DNA of 42,148 nucleotides, taken from Dysgonamonadaceae bacterium. GTDB lineage: Bacteria > Bacteroidota > Bacteroidia > Bacteroidales > Azobacteroidaceae. The notes under the pieces are model-generated. The model saw nothing but the letters and a program-made list of their open reading frames with translations. It searched no databases and was not told where the DNA came from. Every line of letters starts with the position of its first letter. Within the stretch, counting starts at the first letter, position 1. The stretch is taken from contig JAIRYM010000017.1 in NCBI GenBank assembly GCA_031267615.1, forward strand, positions 1-42,148. The letters run 5' to 3'. The position numbers and the translations under genes are program-made. Below, one piece after another: positions 18,773 to 39,085 of this stretch.

Positions 18773-18871
18773 ATATTTTTTTTTTATTCTGCAATAGTTT
18801 TTCTAAAAAAAAGTGTGTTTTTTAAAAAAATATTTTGAAACGGGCTTAAAGTCCACTATAATTCCGGTTTT

Positions 18872-19098
18872 GATTCTTTTTTTTCGTCCCAAACAGCTTG
18901 GCATGAAAGCAATGATTCTTTTTTTTCTCCCAAACAGATTGCTGCTGAAGAAATGGTTCTTTTTTCCATCATAAACAGTTGGTTACGCCAGAAAGAGTCA
19001 TTTTTCACCTCCCCAACAGTTTGGCGGGTAAGAAAGAACCATTTTTCATATTCCAACGTCTTTGGAGAGCAAGAAAGAGCTATTTTTCATATTCCAAA
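18872..19098. repeat. Degenerate tandem repeat, period 40-42 bp, about 5.5 units
   Basis: Unit starts at 18872, 18914, 18955, 18995, 19036, 19077; unit pattern GATTCTTTTTT..CCCAAACAG.TTGG...GAAAGAAA. Confidence 0.8.
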
Positions 19099-25285: not shown

Positions 25286-25567
25286 TTATAATATATTAAT
25301 TTTTATTTCTTGTTTGTTCGTTTTGAAATTTGTATGACAGTTTTTAAAAGCTGTAAGACAGTATTGCGAAGATGTAAGACTGTTTTTAAAAGCTGTAAGA
25401 CAGTTTTGTGAAGATGTAAGACTGTTTTTAAAAGCTGTAAGACAGTTTTGCGAAGCTGTAAGACAGTCTTTAAAAGCTGTAAGACATTTTTTAAAATATT
25501 GTCCTACATATTTTAAAACGGGGTTTACCGCCATGCTGTTTTTTCTGTATATATAATAATGTGTCAT
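25286..25567 (-). other. Possible leader ORF across the 21-bp array (heptapeptide repeats CLTAFKN/SLTSSQN)
   Basis: ATG at 25567, about 20 nt after the predicted TSS; ends 19 nt before the downstream gene; coding status unproven. Confidence 0.35.
25331..25498. repeat. Tandem array, eight 21-bp units (ninth degenerate to about 25519), alternating A/B subtypes
   Basis: Units TGTAAGACAGTTTTTAAAAGC (A) and TGTAAGACAGTTTTGCGAAGA (B) in order A B A B A B' A A'. Confidence 0.95.
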
Positions 25568-32952: not shown

Positions 32953-34758
32953 TTACTCATTCACCACACAGCGCACCGCGAAGCCGTAGCTGCGACTGAG
33001 GTAGCTCTGGTAAGCTTCATCGCTGTCGAAGTGCAAGCACCAGGCGGTACTAGTACCGTCGGCAGAACTACTCCAGTAGTAGCCGTTGCTACCGGAATTA
33101 CCGGAACTGCTGACCGAAGCACCATTATTGGGGCGGAGACCGCCTGCGGGCGCAAAAAGGCTGGCGCCGGAGTCAGAAGCAGGATTGGTATACAGGACGC
33201 CGATGTAAGCAGCGTCTTTAGTATCCCTACTGACGGCGGAACTTGCTTGACCGCTTACAGAAGTCGCGATAGCGCAACGGTCAAAGTATCCGTCAGCGTA
33301 ATAACCCCAATAACGATGATTATTACCGTGTTGGTTGCGGGTTGCATCGTTGAAGGGCACTTCAAACAAACTCTGCATAAGTTCGGATCCACTGGCAGCC
33401 TGTAATAGGTGGCTATCGTTAATAGCGCCAACAGTAGGACGACGCCAACCCTTAGGACAGGTCTCGTGAGTGGCTCCAAGATCACTCCAGTAACCGGGTA
33501 AGTAGTTGTTTACCCAATAGGATACATAAGCAGAAGGATGGAAAGCAAAGGTTTCGTTTCCTGATATTCCTGCCCACTGAAAGAAAGCGCCAATCTGAGT
33601 AGGATAGTCAACAAACTTACCTTTGTAAGATCCATCTGTGGCTATACCTACGCCGGTAGCGGCAAAAGTTGTTGTTTCGTTTATGAGTTCATTGGTAAGG
33701 TTGTAAGGACTGAACTTGGCAGCAAGATTGCGCTCTGCATTGGTCATATCGCCGCCGGTAGCCTTGTCTTCTTTACGAAAAACATAGTCAGCAGAATGTC
33801 CCTGACGACAATAGATTGTATAAGGTGTATTGTTGACAGTCAGGATAACTTTAGCGTAACGCGGTTTTATTTTTGTGTCGTAGGAGTTGTCTGTCTGAGT
33901 GTTCTTACTCAAAGCGCCGATGCGGAACAGGATATGACCTGTTCTGCTGGCTATTTCTGTAACGCGAGCAGAAGGCAACTGAAATTCTTCAGCGTCGTCA
34001 GGATTGTCTGTCCAGAGGTTAGGGTCGTAACCGCCATTGCCGTCAAGAGTAAGCCACGAACCGGTAGTGCCGGAGTTTTCAATCGAAACAGACCAGGTAT
34101 CGGAAGAAGGATTAGAGACTTTAGAGGCGATAACACGCTCGCCGGTCTGGTCGTCCCGCCAGAAAGCACCTACCCATCTTTTTTTAGTCCATGTGTCGCC
34201 GCCCTTAGTTTCGGGAATAGTAGTGACAGGAGTACCAAATCTTACAGTACATCTAGTGCGGCTGCTTTCGCAGTAAAGACCATCAACATTGGAAATGTAA
34301 TAAGTGCCAGCAACAAGAATAAAAGACTTGGCAAGAGGCTCGCCGTCGGTGGCAACGGAGTAAAACCTGTATTGAGGGTAATCTCCTGCTGTTATATCAC
34401 CTTGTTTCGTGATGTCAAGCACCATAGATGTCTGCGACGGAGCAGGAAGGAGAGTATTACAGGGACAACTGGAAATCCAAGCCGCACCGCTCCAGGTCTC
34501 AATGCAATCTGTCGTAGTGTTAAAAATCTGCAAACCCTTTGCCTTGTTTGTTTTTTCGGTTTGAAATTGCACAGTTGCCTGAAGCGTCTCTCGCTGTTCT
34601 GTTGTCAGTTGCGGCAACCGCAAACCTCCGGAGGTGCTTACTAACTCAAGAATTGAAAACTCCTGCGGATCGCTGAGCGACCCAATAGTTACCTGCGCCT
34701 CAGCGCAACTTGCACTCAACATGAAGAGCGCCGTCATTGTTAAAAGAATCATTTTCAT
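32953..34758 (-). CDS. Secreted surface protein with C-terminal FISUMP-like (Fib_succ_major) domain
   Basis: Signal peptide MKMILLTMTALFMLSASCAEA; C-terminus CPKGWRRPTVGAIND...GYYWSSSADGTSTAWCLHFDSDEAYQSYLSRSYGFAVRCVVNE. Confidence 0.75.
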   Translation of the reverse strand: MKMILLTMTALFMLSASCAEAQVTIGSLSDPQEFSILELVSTSGGLRLPQLTTEQRETLQATVQFQTEKTNKAKGLQIFNTTTDCIETWSGAAWISSCPCNTLLPAPSQTSMVLDITKQGDITAGDYPQYRFYSVATDGEPLAKSFILVAGTYYISNVDGLYCESSRTRCTVRFGTPVTTIPETKGGDTWTKKRWVGAFWRDDQTGERVIASKVSNPSSDTWSVSIENSGTTGSWLTLDGNGGYDPNLWTDNPDDAEEFQLPSARVTEIASRTGHILFRIGALSKNTQTDNSYDTKIKPRYAKVILTVNNTPYTIYCRQGHSADYVFRKEDKATGGDMTNAERNLAAKFSPYNLTNELINETTTFAATGVGIATDGSYKGKFVDYPTQIGAFFQWAGISGNETFAFHPSAYVSYWVNNYLPGYWSDLGATHETCPKGWRRPTVGAINDSHLLQAASGSELMQSLFEVPFNDATRNQHGNNHRYWGYYADGYFDRCAIATSVSGQASSAVSRDTKDAAYIGVLYTNPASDSGASLFAPAGGLRPNNGASVSSSGNSGSNGYYWSSSADGTSTAWCLHFDSDEAYQSYLSRSYGFAVRCVVNE

Positions 34759-34915: not shown

Positions 34916-35596
34916 CTACGGAATGATCACGCTTTGAATTTCTCCAAAAGGACCTTTCTGTCCGCGGGTGTTTTCCCAGCGTGCGGCGAACCACAGTTTT
35001 TTACCGCGGTCTTCGTCTGAAAACGTCAGCTTGAGCGGCGTGTGAGTATCGAAATCGGAGCGTGTCAGGTCTTTCAGCACAGGAATGGCGTCGCTGATTG
35101 TCGATATGACCTCTATGCCGTGCTGACCTTCGGGTTTGGATCTCGAGTTTTCCGATGCGCCATAGTGGAAACCGACGGTACGGGCTTCGTCGGCGCGCGC
35201 CCTGATGAAAGGTGCGTGTTCGGCGACCGGAGACGGGCTGTGTCCGCCTGATGAATGTTTCGGAAATCCCATTTTTTCGAGGTCGCCGTCGGTAATTACC
35301 GGGTTTTCCCGAACAAAATTGTAGAGTTTCCTGACTAAGGGGATAAACTCTTCTTCCGCAGCGTTGAGGTCGTCGAGAGCGACGGGCGTACGGGTCGAGA
35401 TGTCGTTCCACACGTCGAACGCGGTGCAAAAAATGGTGCATTGCGGCGTGTAAACGGTGTCATACCAGTCGCCGGGAGGCGTTTTGGCGCTCAGCCCTGC
35501 CTTGATACGAAGATCGCCGATCAGGATTGTGAAGATTAATACTGCCAACTTGTGGCGAAGTTCGTGCCCGTAGGGCAACCAATCATGTGTTGTCAT
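34916..35596 (-). CDS. Uncharacterised protein, RWENTRG-tail family, paralog of 24592-25266
   Basis: Shared tail WENTRGQKGPFGEIQSVIIP and mid-protein GFPKHSSGGHSPSP versus GLPIHKTTRTPSP in the paralog. Confidence 0.85.
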   Translation of the reverse strand: MTTHDWLPYGHELRHKLAVLIFTILIGDLRIKAGLSAKTPPGDWYDTVYTPQCTIFCTAFDVWNDISTRTPVALDDLNAAEEEFIPLVRKLYNFVRENPVITDGDLEKMGFPKHSSGGHSPSPVAEHAPFIRARADEARTVGFHYGASENSRSKPEGQHGIEVISTISDAIPVLKDLTRSDFDTHTPLKLTFSDEDRGKKLWFAARWENTRGQKGPFGEIQSVIIP

Positions 35597-35647
35597 ACAA
35601 TAAAAATTAAATTGTTTGTAAATAATGATTTTTTATATCCAAATGTG

Positions 35648-35920
35648 ATTTGGCTTGAGATGAAAGGGATTCGGCTTGACCCGAAATAGATTTGGCTTGA
35701 GCCGAAAGCAATTTGGCTTGAGCCGAAAGTGATTTGGCTTGAGCCGAAAGTGATTTGGCTTGAGCCGAAAGCAATTTGGCTTGACCCGAAAATGGTTTGG
35801 CTTGAGCCGAAAACGATTTGGCTTGACCCAAAAGCAATTTGGCTTGACCCGAAAACATTTTGGCTTGAGCCGAAAATGGTTTGGCTTGAGCCGAAAACGA
35901 TTTGGCTTGAGCCGAAAACA
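35648..35920. repeat. Tandem array of thirteen 21-bp units
   Basis: Consensus ATTTGGCTTGAGCCGAAAGCA; units start every 21 bp from 35648; each typical unit contains the dyad GGCT-TG-AGCC. Confidence 0.97.
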
Positions 35921-35961
35921 TTGCAGGAAGCCCCGAAGAAAAAGGAAATGCCCCCAAATAA

Positions 35962-36000
35962 TTTTGGGATGAATGAAAAACTTTTCCATTCATCCCAAAA
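35962..36000. repeat. Perfect 14-bp inverted repeat, 11-nt loop, between promoter and array
   Basis: TTTTGGGATGAATG (35962-35975) / CATTCATCCCAAAA (35987-36000). Confidence 0.9.
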
Positions 36001-36182
36001 CAAAGATAAACCGCCCGAAAAAATTTTCGGTCTGTTTAATACAGAATTTATAAATAGATTGTCGGTTACTGGTTTTAGGGGGGGGCGTGTGGCATAAACT
36101 GACACATTTTTTCATGCGTCAATTGCGAATTTTTGATGTAAAAATGTTCGTTTGCCATTTTATTTTTTCGTTTTTACGGCAG

Positions 36183-36190
36183 CAAAGGTA
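36183..36190 (-). promoter_or_regulatory. Bacteroidetes -7 element TACCTTTG upstream of array, leader ORF and RWENTRG gene
   Basis: CAAAGGTA on + strand. Confidence 0.55.
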
Positions 36191-36304
36191 AAACATTATT
36201 TTGAAACGGCAAAATTATTTTGAGTTTTTATTGTGTTTTCAATCCGATTAATAATTTTTGTGCATATAATACAGCAAAATTATTCGAGAATCATATTTTT
36301 TTTA

Positions 36305-36367: not shown

Positions 36368-39085
36368 ATGGACAAAAAAAGAGTTTATCTCTTCGGTAAT
36401 GGCGCTGCCGAAGGACGTGCAGACATGAAAAACCTCCTCGGAGGTAAAGGCGCTAACTTAGCTGAAATGAACCTTATAGGCGTTCCTGTGCCTCCAGGTT
36501 TCACTATCACAACTGAAGTTTGCGCAGAATATACACAACAGGGAAAAGATACAGCTGTATCCCTGATTACAAAAGAAGTTGAAACCGCTATGCAGCAGGT
36601 AGAAAAACTTACCGGCACAAAATTCGGCGACAAAGAAAATCCCTGCCTCGTCTCTGTCCGCTCAGGCGCTCGCGTTTCGATGCCGGGTATGATGGACACC
36701 GTGCTTAACCTCGGTATGAACGACAGCGCAGTGGAAGCAGTCGCCAAAAAATCGGGCAACGCTCGCTTCGCCTGGGACTCCTACCGCCGCTTCGTGCAAA
36801 TGTATGGCGATGTAGTTCTCGGTATGAAACCGACTTCCAAAACGGAAATCGACCCGTTTGAAAAAATTATGGAAGAAGTTAAAGAAGCCAAAGGTGTGAA
36901 ACTTGACACCGAACTCGGAGTTGAAGATCTTCAAAAATTGGTAAAAGAATTTAAAGCAGCAGTCAAAACACAGACCGGCAAAGATTTTCCCGATAGCCCT
37001 TGGGAACAACTTTGGGGCGCCGTTTGCGCAGTGTTCGATTCCTGGATGAACGAACGTGCAATCCTCTATCGTCAAATGTACCGCATCCCCGAAGAATGGG
37101 GAACTGCCGTCAATGTTCAGGCGATGGTATTCGGCAATATGGGAAACAATTCCGCTACCGGTGTTGCTTTCAGCCGCGACGCTGCTACAGGCGAAGACAT
37201 CTTCAATGGTGAATACCTCATCAATGCACAGGGAGAAGATGTGGTTGCCGGTATCCGCACTCCGCAGCAAATCACCCTCGAAGGCTCGAAACGATGGGCA
37301 GCACAACAGGGAAAGACAGAAGAAGAACGTAAATCGAAATATCCTTCACTCGAAGAATCAATGCCCGAATGTGCAAAGCAACTGATTGAAATTCAACAAA
37401 AGCTCGAAGACCATGCCCGCGATATGCAGGACATCGAATTTACCATTCAAGACGGCAAGCTCTGGCTGCTGCAAACCCGCAACGGCAAACGCACCGGCGC
37501 AGCAATGGTTAGAATCGCAATGGAAATGCTCGCACAAGGCGTAATTGACGAAAAAACAACCCTCCTCCGTCAGGAACCCGAAAAACTCGACGAACTACTG
37601 CACCCCATCTTCAAAAAAACAGCACTCGCACAGGCAAAACCGCTCACAAAGGGACTTCCCGCATCTCCGGGCGCAGCGACTGGCAAAGTAGTGTTTCACG
37701 CCGACGACGCAGAAGAATGGGTAAAACGAGGAGAAAAAGTAGTTCTTTGTCGCATTGAAACTTCGCCCGAAGACCTTCGCGGCATGGCTGTTGCAGAAGG
37801 AATTATGACCGCTCGTGGCGGTATGACGTCTCACGCTGCGGTTGTGGCTCGCGGTATGGGGAAATGTTGCGTATCAGCTGCTAACGGTATTCATATAGAT
37901 TATAAAAAGAAAACCCTTGCAGTGGACAATCAACTGCTCAACGAAGGCGACTGGATTTCGCTCAATGGCTCAACCGGACTTGTTTATGCAGGAAAAATCG
38001 AAACGCAGGAACCCGAGCTCAGTGGCGATTTCAACGCATTGATGAAACTTGCCGACAAACATGCCCGTCTAAAAGTTCGCACCAATGCCGATACGCCGAA
38101 AGACGCATCGGTAGCCCGCTCATTCGGAGCACAGGGTATCGGACTTTGCCGCACCGAACACATGTTTTTTGAAGGCGACAAAATCATCTCTATGCGTGAA
38201 ATGATTCTGGCGAAAGACGAAGCCGGACGCCGCAAGGCGCTTGCCAAACTTCTTCCGTTGCAACGCGCCGATTTCTACGGTATCTTCGAAGCAATGAAAG
38301 GACTGCCCGTAACAGTGCGCCTGCTCGATCCGCCTCTTCACGAATTTGTTCCCCACGACGAAAAAGGTCAGGAAGAAATGGCGAAAGTGATGGGCGTTCC
38401 CTATGAAGAAATTCACGTCCGTGTAGAAAGTTTGCTCGAACAGAACCCGATGCTTGGGCTTCGTGGTTGTCGTCTCGGAAACCTTTATCCCGAAATCACC
38501 GAAATGCAAACCCGCGCTATTATCGAGGCTGCGTTAGACCTGAGCGCAAAAGGCGTTGAGGTGTATCCAGAAATTATGGTTCCGCTCACAAGTATTCTTC
38601 ACGAGTTTGAAGCCCAGAAAAAAATCATCGACCAGACAGCACAGACAGTTTTTGCAGAACGCGGCAAGAAAATAGACTTCAAAGTCGGCACGATGATTGA
38701 AATCCCGCGTGCAGCGCTTACCGCTCACCGTATTGCCGAGGCAGCCGAGTTTTTCTCGTTTGGTACCAACGACTTGACGCAGATGACATTCGGTTTCAGC
38801 CGCGACGACGTTGCCAAGTTCCTTCCGATGTATATTGACAAGCACATCTTGAAAGAAGACCCGTTTGCAGTTCTCGATCAGAAAGGCGTGGGACAACTCG
38901 TTCAAATGGCAACCCAGAAAGGACGCGAAGTTCGTGACAACCTCAAATGCGGCATCTGCGGCGAACACGGCGGCGAACCTTCGTCGGTCAAGTTCTGCCA
39001 CCGCGTAGGTCTTGATTACGTAAGTTGCTCGCCTTTCCGCGTGCCTATCGCACGGCTTGCTGCAGCGCAGGCGGCAGTGGAATAA
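36368..39085 (+). CDS. ppdK: Pyruvate, phosphate dikinase
   Basis: LLGGKGANLAEM, VSVRSGARVSMPGMMDTVLNLG, GGMTSHAAVVARGMGKCCVSA, GICGEHGGEP. Confidence 0.97.
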   Translation: MDKKRVYLFGNGAAEGRADMKNLLGGKGANLAEMNLIGVPVPPGFTITTEVCAEYTQQGKDTAVSLITKEVETAMQQVEKLTGTKFGDKENPCLVSVRSGARVSMPGMMDTVLNLGMNDSAVEAVAKKSGNARFAWDSYRRFVQMYGDVVLGMKPTSKTEIDPFEKIMEEVKEAKGVKLDTELGVEDLQKLVKEFKAAVKTQTGKDFPDSPWEQLWGAVCAVFDSWMNERAILYRQMYRIPEEWGTAVNVQAMVFGNMGNNSATGVAFSRDAATGEDIFNGEYLINAQGEDVVAGIRTPQQITLEGSKRWAAQQGKTEEERKSKYPSLEESMPECAKQLIEIQQKLEDHARDMQDIEFTIQDGKLWLLQTRNGKRTGAAMVRIAMEMLAQGVIDEKTTLLRQEPEKLDELLHPIFKKTALAQAKPLTKGLPASPGAATGKVVFHADDAEEWVKRGEKVVLCRIETSPEDLRGMAVAEGIMTARGGMTSHAAVVARGMGKCCVSAANGIHIDYKKKTLAVDNQLLNEGDWISLNGSTGLVYAGKIETQEPELSGDFNALMKLADKHARLKVRTNADTPKDASVARSFGAQGIGLCRTEHMFFEGDKIISMREMILAKDEAGRRKALAKLLPLQRADFYGIFEAMKGLPVTVRLLDPPLHEFVPHDEKGQEEMAKVMGVPYEEIHVRVESLLEQNPMLGLRGCRLGNLYPEITEMQTRAIIEAALDLSAKGVEVYPEIMVPLTSILHEFEAQKKIIDQTAQTVFAERGKKIDFKVGTMIEIPRAALTAHRIAEAAEFFSFGTNDLTQMTFGFSRDDVAKFLPMYIDKHILKEDPFAVLDQKGVGQLVQMATQKGREVRDNLKCGICGEHGGEPSSVKFCHRVGLDYVSCSPFRVPIARLAAAQAAVE

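Follow-up and report, generated by a model that had tools for sequence, protein, structure and literature searches.

A tandem array of fixed period and free sequence in the leaders of a multicopy Bacteroidales gene family, and a possible poly-C switch

Why should a tandem array of short units stand directly in front of a protein-coding gene, and what, if anything, is read from it? The question is raised by a locus in a 42,148-nucleotide stretch of DNA from a Dysgonamonadaceae bacterium (hereafter the window). The initial annotation described thirteen 21-bp units, each with a GGCTtgAGCC dyad, and a reading frame across them that is coupled by ATGA to the downstream gene. TRF reports the units as one array with a period of 21 and zero indels, ending 51 bp before the ATG of a gene for a 226-aa protein on the minus strand (Table 1). 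The coupling is also present, as the minus-strand frame 35593-36105 spans the array and its terminal TGA overlaps the ATG of the 226-aa gene. The interval first marked for this locus ended at 36190, which is the edge of the -7 box of a Bacteroidetes-type promoter. No tRNA and no Rfam family were detected in the window. A CRISPR or TIGR-type guide array was considered and rejected, the 21-bp units being contiguous, with no unique spacers between them.

Table 1. Positions of the array loci and associated features in the window
Feature	Positions	Strand	Remarks
DUF6261 gene (PF19775), 336 aa	17784-18794	minus	other array-bearing family (41-43 bp)
41-bp tandem repeat, 2.3 copies	18871-18965	minus	just upstream of the DUF6261 gene
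Second WENTRG family gene, 224 aa	24592-25266	minus	37% identity with the first over 169 aa
Leader ORF of the second locus, 93 aa	25286-25567	minus	open across the whole array
Second 21-bp array, unit unrelated to the first	25331-25496	minus	before the second family gene
Secreted protein gene, sub-threshold Fib_succ_major match	32953-34758	minus	next gene, same strand
226-aa WENTRG family gene	34916-35596	minus	predicted helical bundle and Fn3-like domain
Open frame after the tract, across the array (FGSSQI-type heptads)	35593-36077	minus	TGA overlaps the next ATG
21-bp tandem array, 12.9 units	35647-35917	minus	TRF
C8 tract, C on the gene strand	36078-36085	minus	inside the leader, before the array
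Leader ORF, start MANEHFYIKNSQLTHEKMCQFMPHAPP	36075-36158	minus	stopped just after the poly-C tract
Bacteroidetes-type promoter	36183-36213	minus	-33 TTTG (36210-36213), 19-nt spacer, -7 TACCTTTG (36183-36190)

The 226-aa protein belongs to a family named WENTRG here, from the motif that is best conserved in it. A tblastn search of the 2.1-Mb genome that encodes the protein gave 31 matches, and its relatives occur for the most part in metagenome-assembled Bacteroidales genomes (Tannerella, Dysgonamonadaceae, Prevotellaceae and others), whose isolate names suggest the guts of termites and cockroaches as their source. Among same-genus genomes, 16 of 41 carry the family, with up to 32 matches each. 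Family genes are also found in bins labelled Planctomycetaceae (L055, L064, L065, L067, L072 and others), which probably represent binning contamination by Bacteroidales contigs. Searches of phage and plasmid collections gave no match, and IMG/VR gave five weak ones. No family was assigned to the protein in Pfam, NCBIfam, PHROGs or PADLOC, nor was it matched by sequence in the PDB. The predicted fold (pLDDT 95.8) comprises a helical bundle (about residues 11-108) and an Fn3-like domain (about residues 130-226), and a PDB search by fold returned generic Fn3 domains only. Matches to Regnase and beta-lactamase involved single members of the alignment and were judged to be due to chance; a common origin with the DUF6261 proteins, also encoded in the window, was rejected at a profile comparison probability of 3% or less.

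The initial annotation had made its reading depend on whether homologous loci carry the array, and in most cases they do. Using TRF, arrays of 21, 22 or 42 bp were detected upstream of 95 of 103 family genes (period 21 in 87, 22 in 5, 42 in 3 and none in 8), compared with arrays of any kind, of scattered periods, downstream of 12 out of 100. Autocorrelation likewise found arrays in 87 of 96 upstream regions versus 9 of 99 downstream ones. Once each gene and the 1 kb upstream of it had been masked, 265 kb of flanking sequence contained only eight arrays, of mixed period. Riboflavin-synthase and PPDK loci from 40 genomes of the genus served only as a control of array density; their divergence (riboflavin synthase being about 70% identical at the protein level) seemed too great for an empty-site comparison of intergenic regions.

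Individual loci show how gene and array can part. Three family genes (L023, L025 and L028) are internally deleted, so that about 28 N-terminal residues are followed directly by the last 25-35, and the array is retained at L023 and L025. At L041 (G000:C122, about 36961-37103), the promoter, the leader and an array with almost the unit of the window are present and the 226-aa gene is missing; the array runs straight to a paralogue of the secreted-protein gene that follows in the window, so that the locus reads as an array after gene loss. At L004 / L308:9897-10281, the array and the family gene are separated by an ORF whose 253-aa product is probably a coiled-coil protein.

What these family arrays conserve is the period, not the sequence. 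Between proteins at least 60% identical, the units share on average 10.4 of 21 positions, against 9.2 for shuffled units, and in a pair of 91%-identical proteins they match at 10 of 21 positions, against the same 9.2 by chance. The idea of cognate protein-array pairs was therefore discarded. Moreover, members of one unit family occur in front of WENTRG genes, in front of secreted-protein genes and on their own, and hence the linked protein does not set the unit.

The dyad does not have the regularity first ascribed to it. Rather than once in every unit, the perfect 10-mer is present in only 8 of the 13 units of the window, being broken by ACCC in four and by an AGAT ending in one, and the dyad of the consensus unit is no stronger than that of shuffled units (p = 0.63). 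The ACCC/AGCC exchange, which is the commonest dyad variant, swaps the synonymous codons GGG and GGC in the FGSSQI frame. Compared with shuffled units, 20 of 90 units had a dyad at p<0.05; the dyad is enriched in the class and absent from half of the units, and was dismissed as a universal feature. For this array, the proposal that a dimeric protein binds a conserved dyad is thus not supported, given the disruption of the dyad in 5 of 13 units, its chance-level strength and the unrelated unit sequences at homologous genes.

Where the arrays lie relative to the promoter is informative. The pattern TTTG-N17-21-TAnnTTTG was found before 21 of the 71 family arrays, against 0.2 expected, and between array and gene in none of the 71, so the arrays are most likely located in the transcribed leader. 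The array-spanning ORF of the window has no ATG of its own, only a GTG at 36105, and its likely start is the ATG at 36158, which is split from the array frame by a C8 tract. Homologous leader starts (MA[NTP][EH][YH]F[YH]..) are present at 16 poly-C loci of the same genome. At the second locus of the window, the leader begins with an ATG 23 nt after the -7 box. When the first ATG after the promoter was taken regardless of frame, its frame read through the whole array at 19 of 36 loci, compared with 1 and 3 for the other two frames, and most of the leader ORFs that cross the array stop no more than about 50 nt from the family gene start. At the other 17 promoter loci, the leader frame is not read through as assembled, and some of them have no tract to repair it. 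The pN/pS of leader codons, 0.68 in frame versus 0.91 and 0.95 out of frame, weakly suggests purifying selection.

An arrangement of promoter, tandem repeats and a gene of 150-250 aa, in this order and in many copies per genome, calls to mind a pair in which the repeat RNA is either an inhibitor or a processing substrate of the downstream protein, as in type III toxin-antitoxin systems. Arrays that outlive deleted genes, as at L041, would fit such a pair, as would the 41-43 nt repeats of the DUF6261 loci, a length near that of known type III repeats. However, a repeat RNA crossed by an ORF at those 19 of 36 loci is not non-coding, and 91%-identical proteins preceded by unrelated repeats, as well as a single unit family in front of two unrelated gene types, are difficult to reconcile with a matched RNA and protein. 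Given also that Pfam and PADLOC returned no toxin or defence family and that the predicted fold is a helical bundle with an Fn3-like domain, we regard this explanation as very improbable.

The poly-C tract determines whether the leader and the array share a frame. In the window, a C9 tract would put the leader start in frame with the array and give a product of 188 aa that ends in the ATGA overlap, while C7 and C8 lead to stop codons 85 and 0 nt after the tract; an FGSSQI peptide starting at the leader ATG is possible only if the tract shifts the frame, a dependence that the initial annotation did not note. In 1.56 Mb of this genome there are 15 C/G runs of at least 10. Twelve of them have a 21-bp array within 200 bp and lie on the gene strand, between the leader start and the array; the remaining three, close to contig ends, follow the same leader start. 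At all 13 poly-C loci with an identifiable leader and array, the window included (L256, cut by a contig end, was left out), exactly one of the lengths n-1, n and n+1 reads through the array and the other lengths stop within about 100 nt, although these loci are paralogues and do not amount to 13 independent tests. As assembled, L314 and L319 are in frame (ON) and the window is OFF (C8), these being states read from draft assemblies, like all the genomes used, in which homopolymer lengths can be off by one. At L301 and L319, the in-frame product continues into the secreted-protein gene. The same one-length logic applies at L011, L075 and L108, and at L003, where the tract is (AC)38. Two lengths read through at L054, and L070, L115, L143 and L152 are exceptions. 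Tract and unit counts are based on one genome per species.

Leader frames that are kept open, with a conserved N-terminus joined to locus-specific heptads, could indicate that the peptide encoded by the array (FGSSQI and its counterparts) functions in its own right, as a phase-variable repeat protein. A match to the beta-roll ice-binding profile PF21300, sub-threshold at 27 bits against a cut-off of 30, points in the same direction. Nevertheless, the heptads of different loci are unrelated, the synonymous fraction (0.301) is close to the neutral expectation of 0.286 (z = 0.83), and variability within the arrays, where changes are dominated by transitions, has no period-3 (codon) signal. The peptide is therefore rejected as a selected property, even though the frame stays open, and its role as the working product appears highly doubtful. 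At the RNA level, self-pairing of units exceeds that of shuffled units (p about 3e-9) on both strands, the effect being modest in size. Folding is somewhat stronger in the antisense than in the sense orientation, which does not favour a barrier formed by the sense RNA.

Considering the anatomy of the locus, the position of the promoter, the frame logic and the conservation of the array throughout the family, we lean towards reading the locus as a phase-variable leader cistron that gates the downstream gene by translation. Transcription from the promoter would produce a short leader ORF (MANEYFY...) that runs across the poly-C tract and then the 21-bp array, to a stop codon that overlaps or sits close to the start of the next gene. 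With a tract length in frame (ON), the array would be translated and ribosomes would reinitiate on the next gene or fuse into it. With a tract one base off (OFF), ribosomes would stop within about 100 nt and leave the next gene uncoupled, and the untranslated array would either self-pair or be exposed to termination. This switch presupposes a variable tract length, lower expression in the OFF state and an untranslated array that acts as the barrier. As 21 is a multiple of three, the number of units would leave the frame unaffected. Loci with a read-through leader and no tract appear to be permanently in frame. Transcriptional slippage at the C tract, with the DNA unchanged, would follow the same frame logic and yield a mixed product. 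The leader cistron does not account for a period of 21 over 18 or 24, nor for periods of 22 and 41-43; given that the 22-bp and 41/43-bp arrays lack a constant frame, translation is not the common purpose of all arrays.

A broader view of the arrays was obtained from a census covering 1.56 of the 2.13 Mb of the same genome, which yielded 85 tandem arrays of at least 3 copies, 70 of them with a period of 21 or 42. The genes behind these arrays encode WENTRG proteins, secreted proteins with a Fib_succ_major-like domain, DUF6261 proteins and a small third family; at loci other than the window, an array is found directly before genes of the type that occupies 32953-34758. In a fourth family, the array is downstream of the gene. 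About 19 arrays, not at contig ends, have no identified gene partner, and 9 lie between convergent genes. At L342:11067, L343:6920 and L328:7736, among others, a 21-bp array is flanked by convergent genes and there is no family gene in the vicinity. The multicopy ESGINTYVGNF family has a 21-bp array 3' of the gene in 3 of 3 copies examined (L292:2544, L315:7527 and L254:8797). The genome also has seven 23-bp tandem arrays (e.g. L336:11818 and L325:12831) that are unlinked to these families.

DUF6261 genes were sampled from twelve further genomes, which represent twelve different families of the order. TRF detected arrays of about 40-43 bp upstream of most of these genes and downstream of none, and the best autocorrelation lag was 41-43, or its double, at 26 of 28 loci, two of which are from the genome of the window. 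Spacing by whole helical turns is thus shared by 21/22 bp (two turns) and 41-43 bp (four turns).

Since the period corresponds to whole helical turns in all arrays, a DNA-level role of the class is possible. The units would then present the same face of the helix or sum an intrinsic bend, a nucleoid or regulatory protein would read the array, and the leader ORF would be secondary. Periods of 21-22 in one family and 41-43 in an unrelated one are consistent with this, in particular 41 and 43, which fall outside any coding rule, as are the otherwise free unit sequence, the enrichment of dyads and the 41-42-bp units at L357 and L363 with two different palindromes about 21 bp apart. On the other hand, a DNA-level role leaves the in-frame leaders and poly-C tracts unaccounted for, and the arrays follow the promoter, inside the transcribed leader. 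A dyad is missing from half of the units, and the linked proteins showed no recognisable DNA-binding domain. We therefore consider a DNA-level element unlikely at this locus, though with more to recommend it than the peptide or the toxin-antitoxin-like pair.

The arrays might alternatively be neutral or selfish DNA that expands wherever a leader tolerates it, with a period fixed by the replication-slippage machinery. Unit families dispersed over the genome, arrays between convergent genes, a free unit sequence and the predominance of transitions would all be expected of such DNA. It would not be expected to be linked to particular gene families at 92% of loci, nor to show read-through frames, a constant position relative to the promoter and the tract logic, and we give this explanation very little credence.

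We found no description of such arrays in the literature. We tentatively propose, as a suggestion that could well prove wrong, that they constitute an undescribed class of Bacteroidales elements with a fixed period of two or four helical turns and a free, rapidly replaced sequence, forming a near-constant component of the leaders of several unrelated multicopy families (WENTRG, DUF6261 and perhaps others) and equipped with poly-C switches in one lineage. The pattern provides a rule that can be checked on sequence across an order of gut bacteria, namely that a family gene has a 21-bp or 41-43-bp array in its leader, and this rule covers protein families of unknown function, including DUF6261. 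In the termite symbiont, a whole set of phase-variable switches is predicted, standing before genes of surface proteins and of the WENTRG family. A conserved period combined with a free sequence is unusual and raises the question of what is recognised when no sequence is kept.

Several known systems share part of this organization. In type III toxin-antitoxin loci (ToxIN, CptIN), tandem repeats lie between a promoter and a small protein gene (PMC8860590, PMC4627078). The array loci resemble them in having tandem repeats directly upstream of a gene under one promoter, but differ in a period of 21 or 41-43 with up to about 29 units, an ORF across the repeats, the lack of an endoribonuclease family and repeats that are not matched to the protein. 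Iteron and operator arrays similarly consist of tandem units spaced by whole helical turns, in part with dyads, whereas the array loci of one family share no site sequence, lie downstream of the promoter and have no identified DNA-binding protein. Leader-peptide attenuation and translational coupling offer a parallel in that translation of the leader ORF would end at the next start codon; unlike attenuation, the array loci have neither a conserved peptide nor an alternative hairpin, and the proposed switch would be a frameshifting tract. Phase variation through homopolymers is known from the simple-sequence-repeat contingency loci of Haemophilus, Neisseria and Campylobacter. As in those loci, a long poly-C tract lies inside an ORF, one length in three keeps the frame, and there are many loci per genome, partly before surface-protein genes. 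In contrast to them, the tract is found in a leader ORF rather than in the switched gene, and the controlled cistron is reached only after this leader has also crossed a 21-bp array whose sequence is free.
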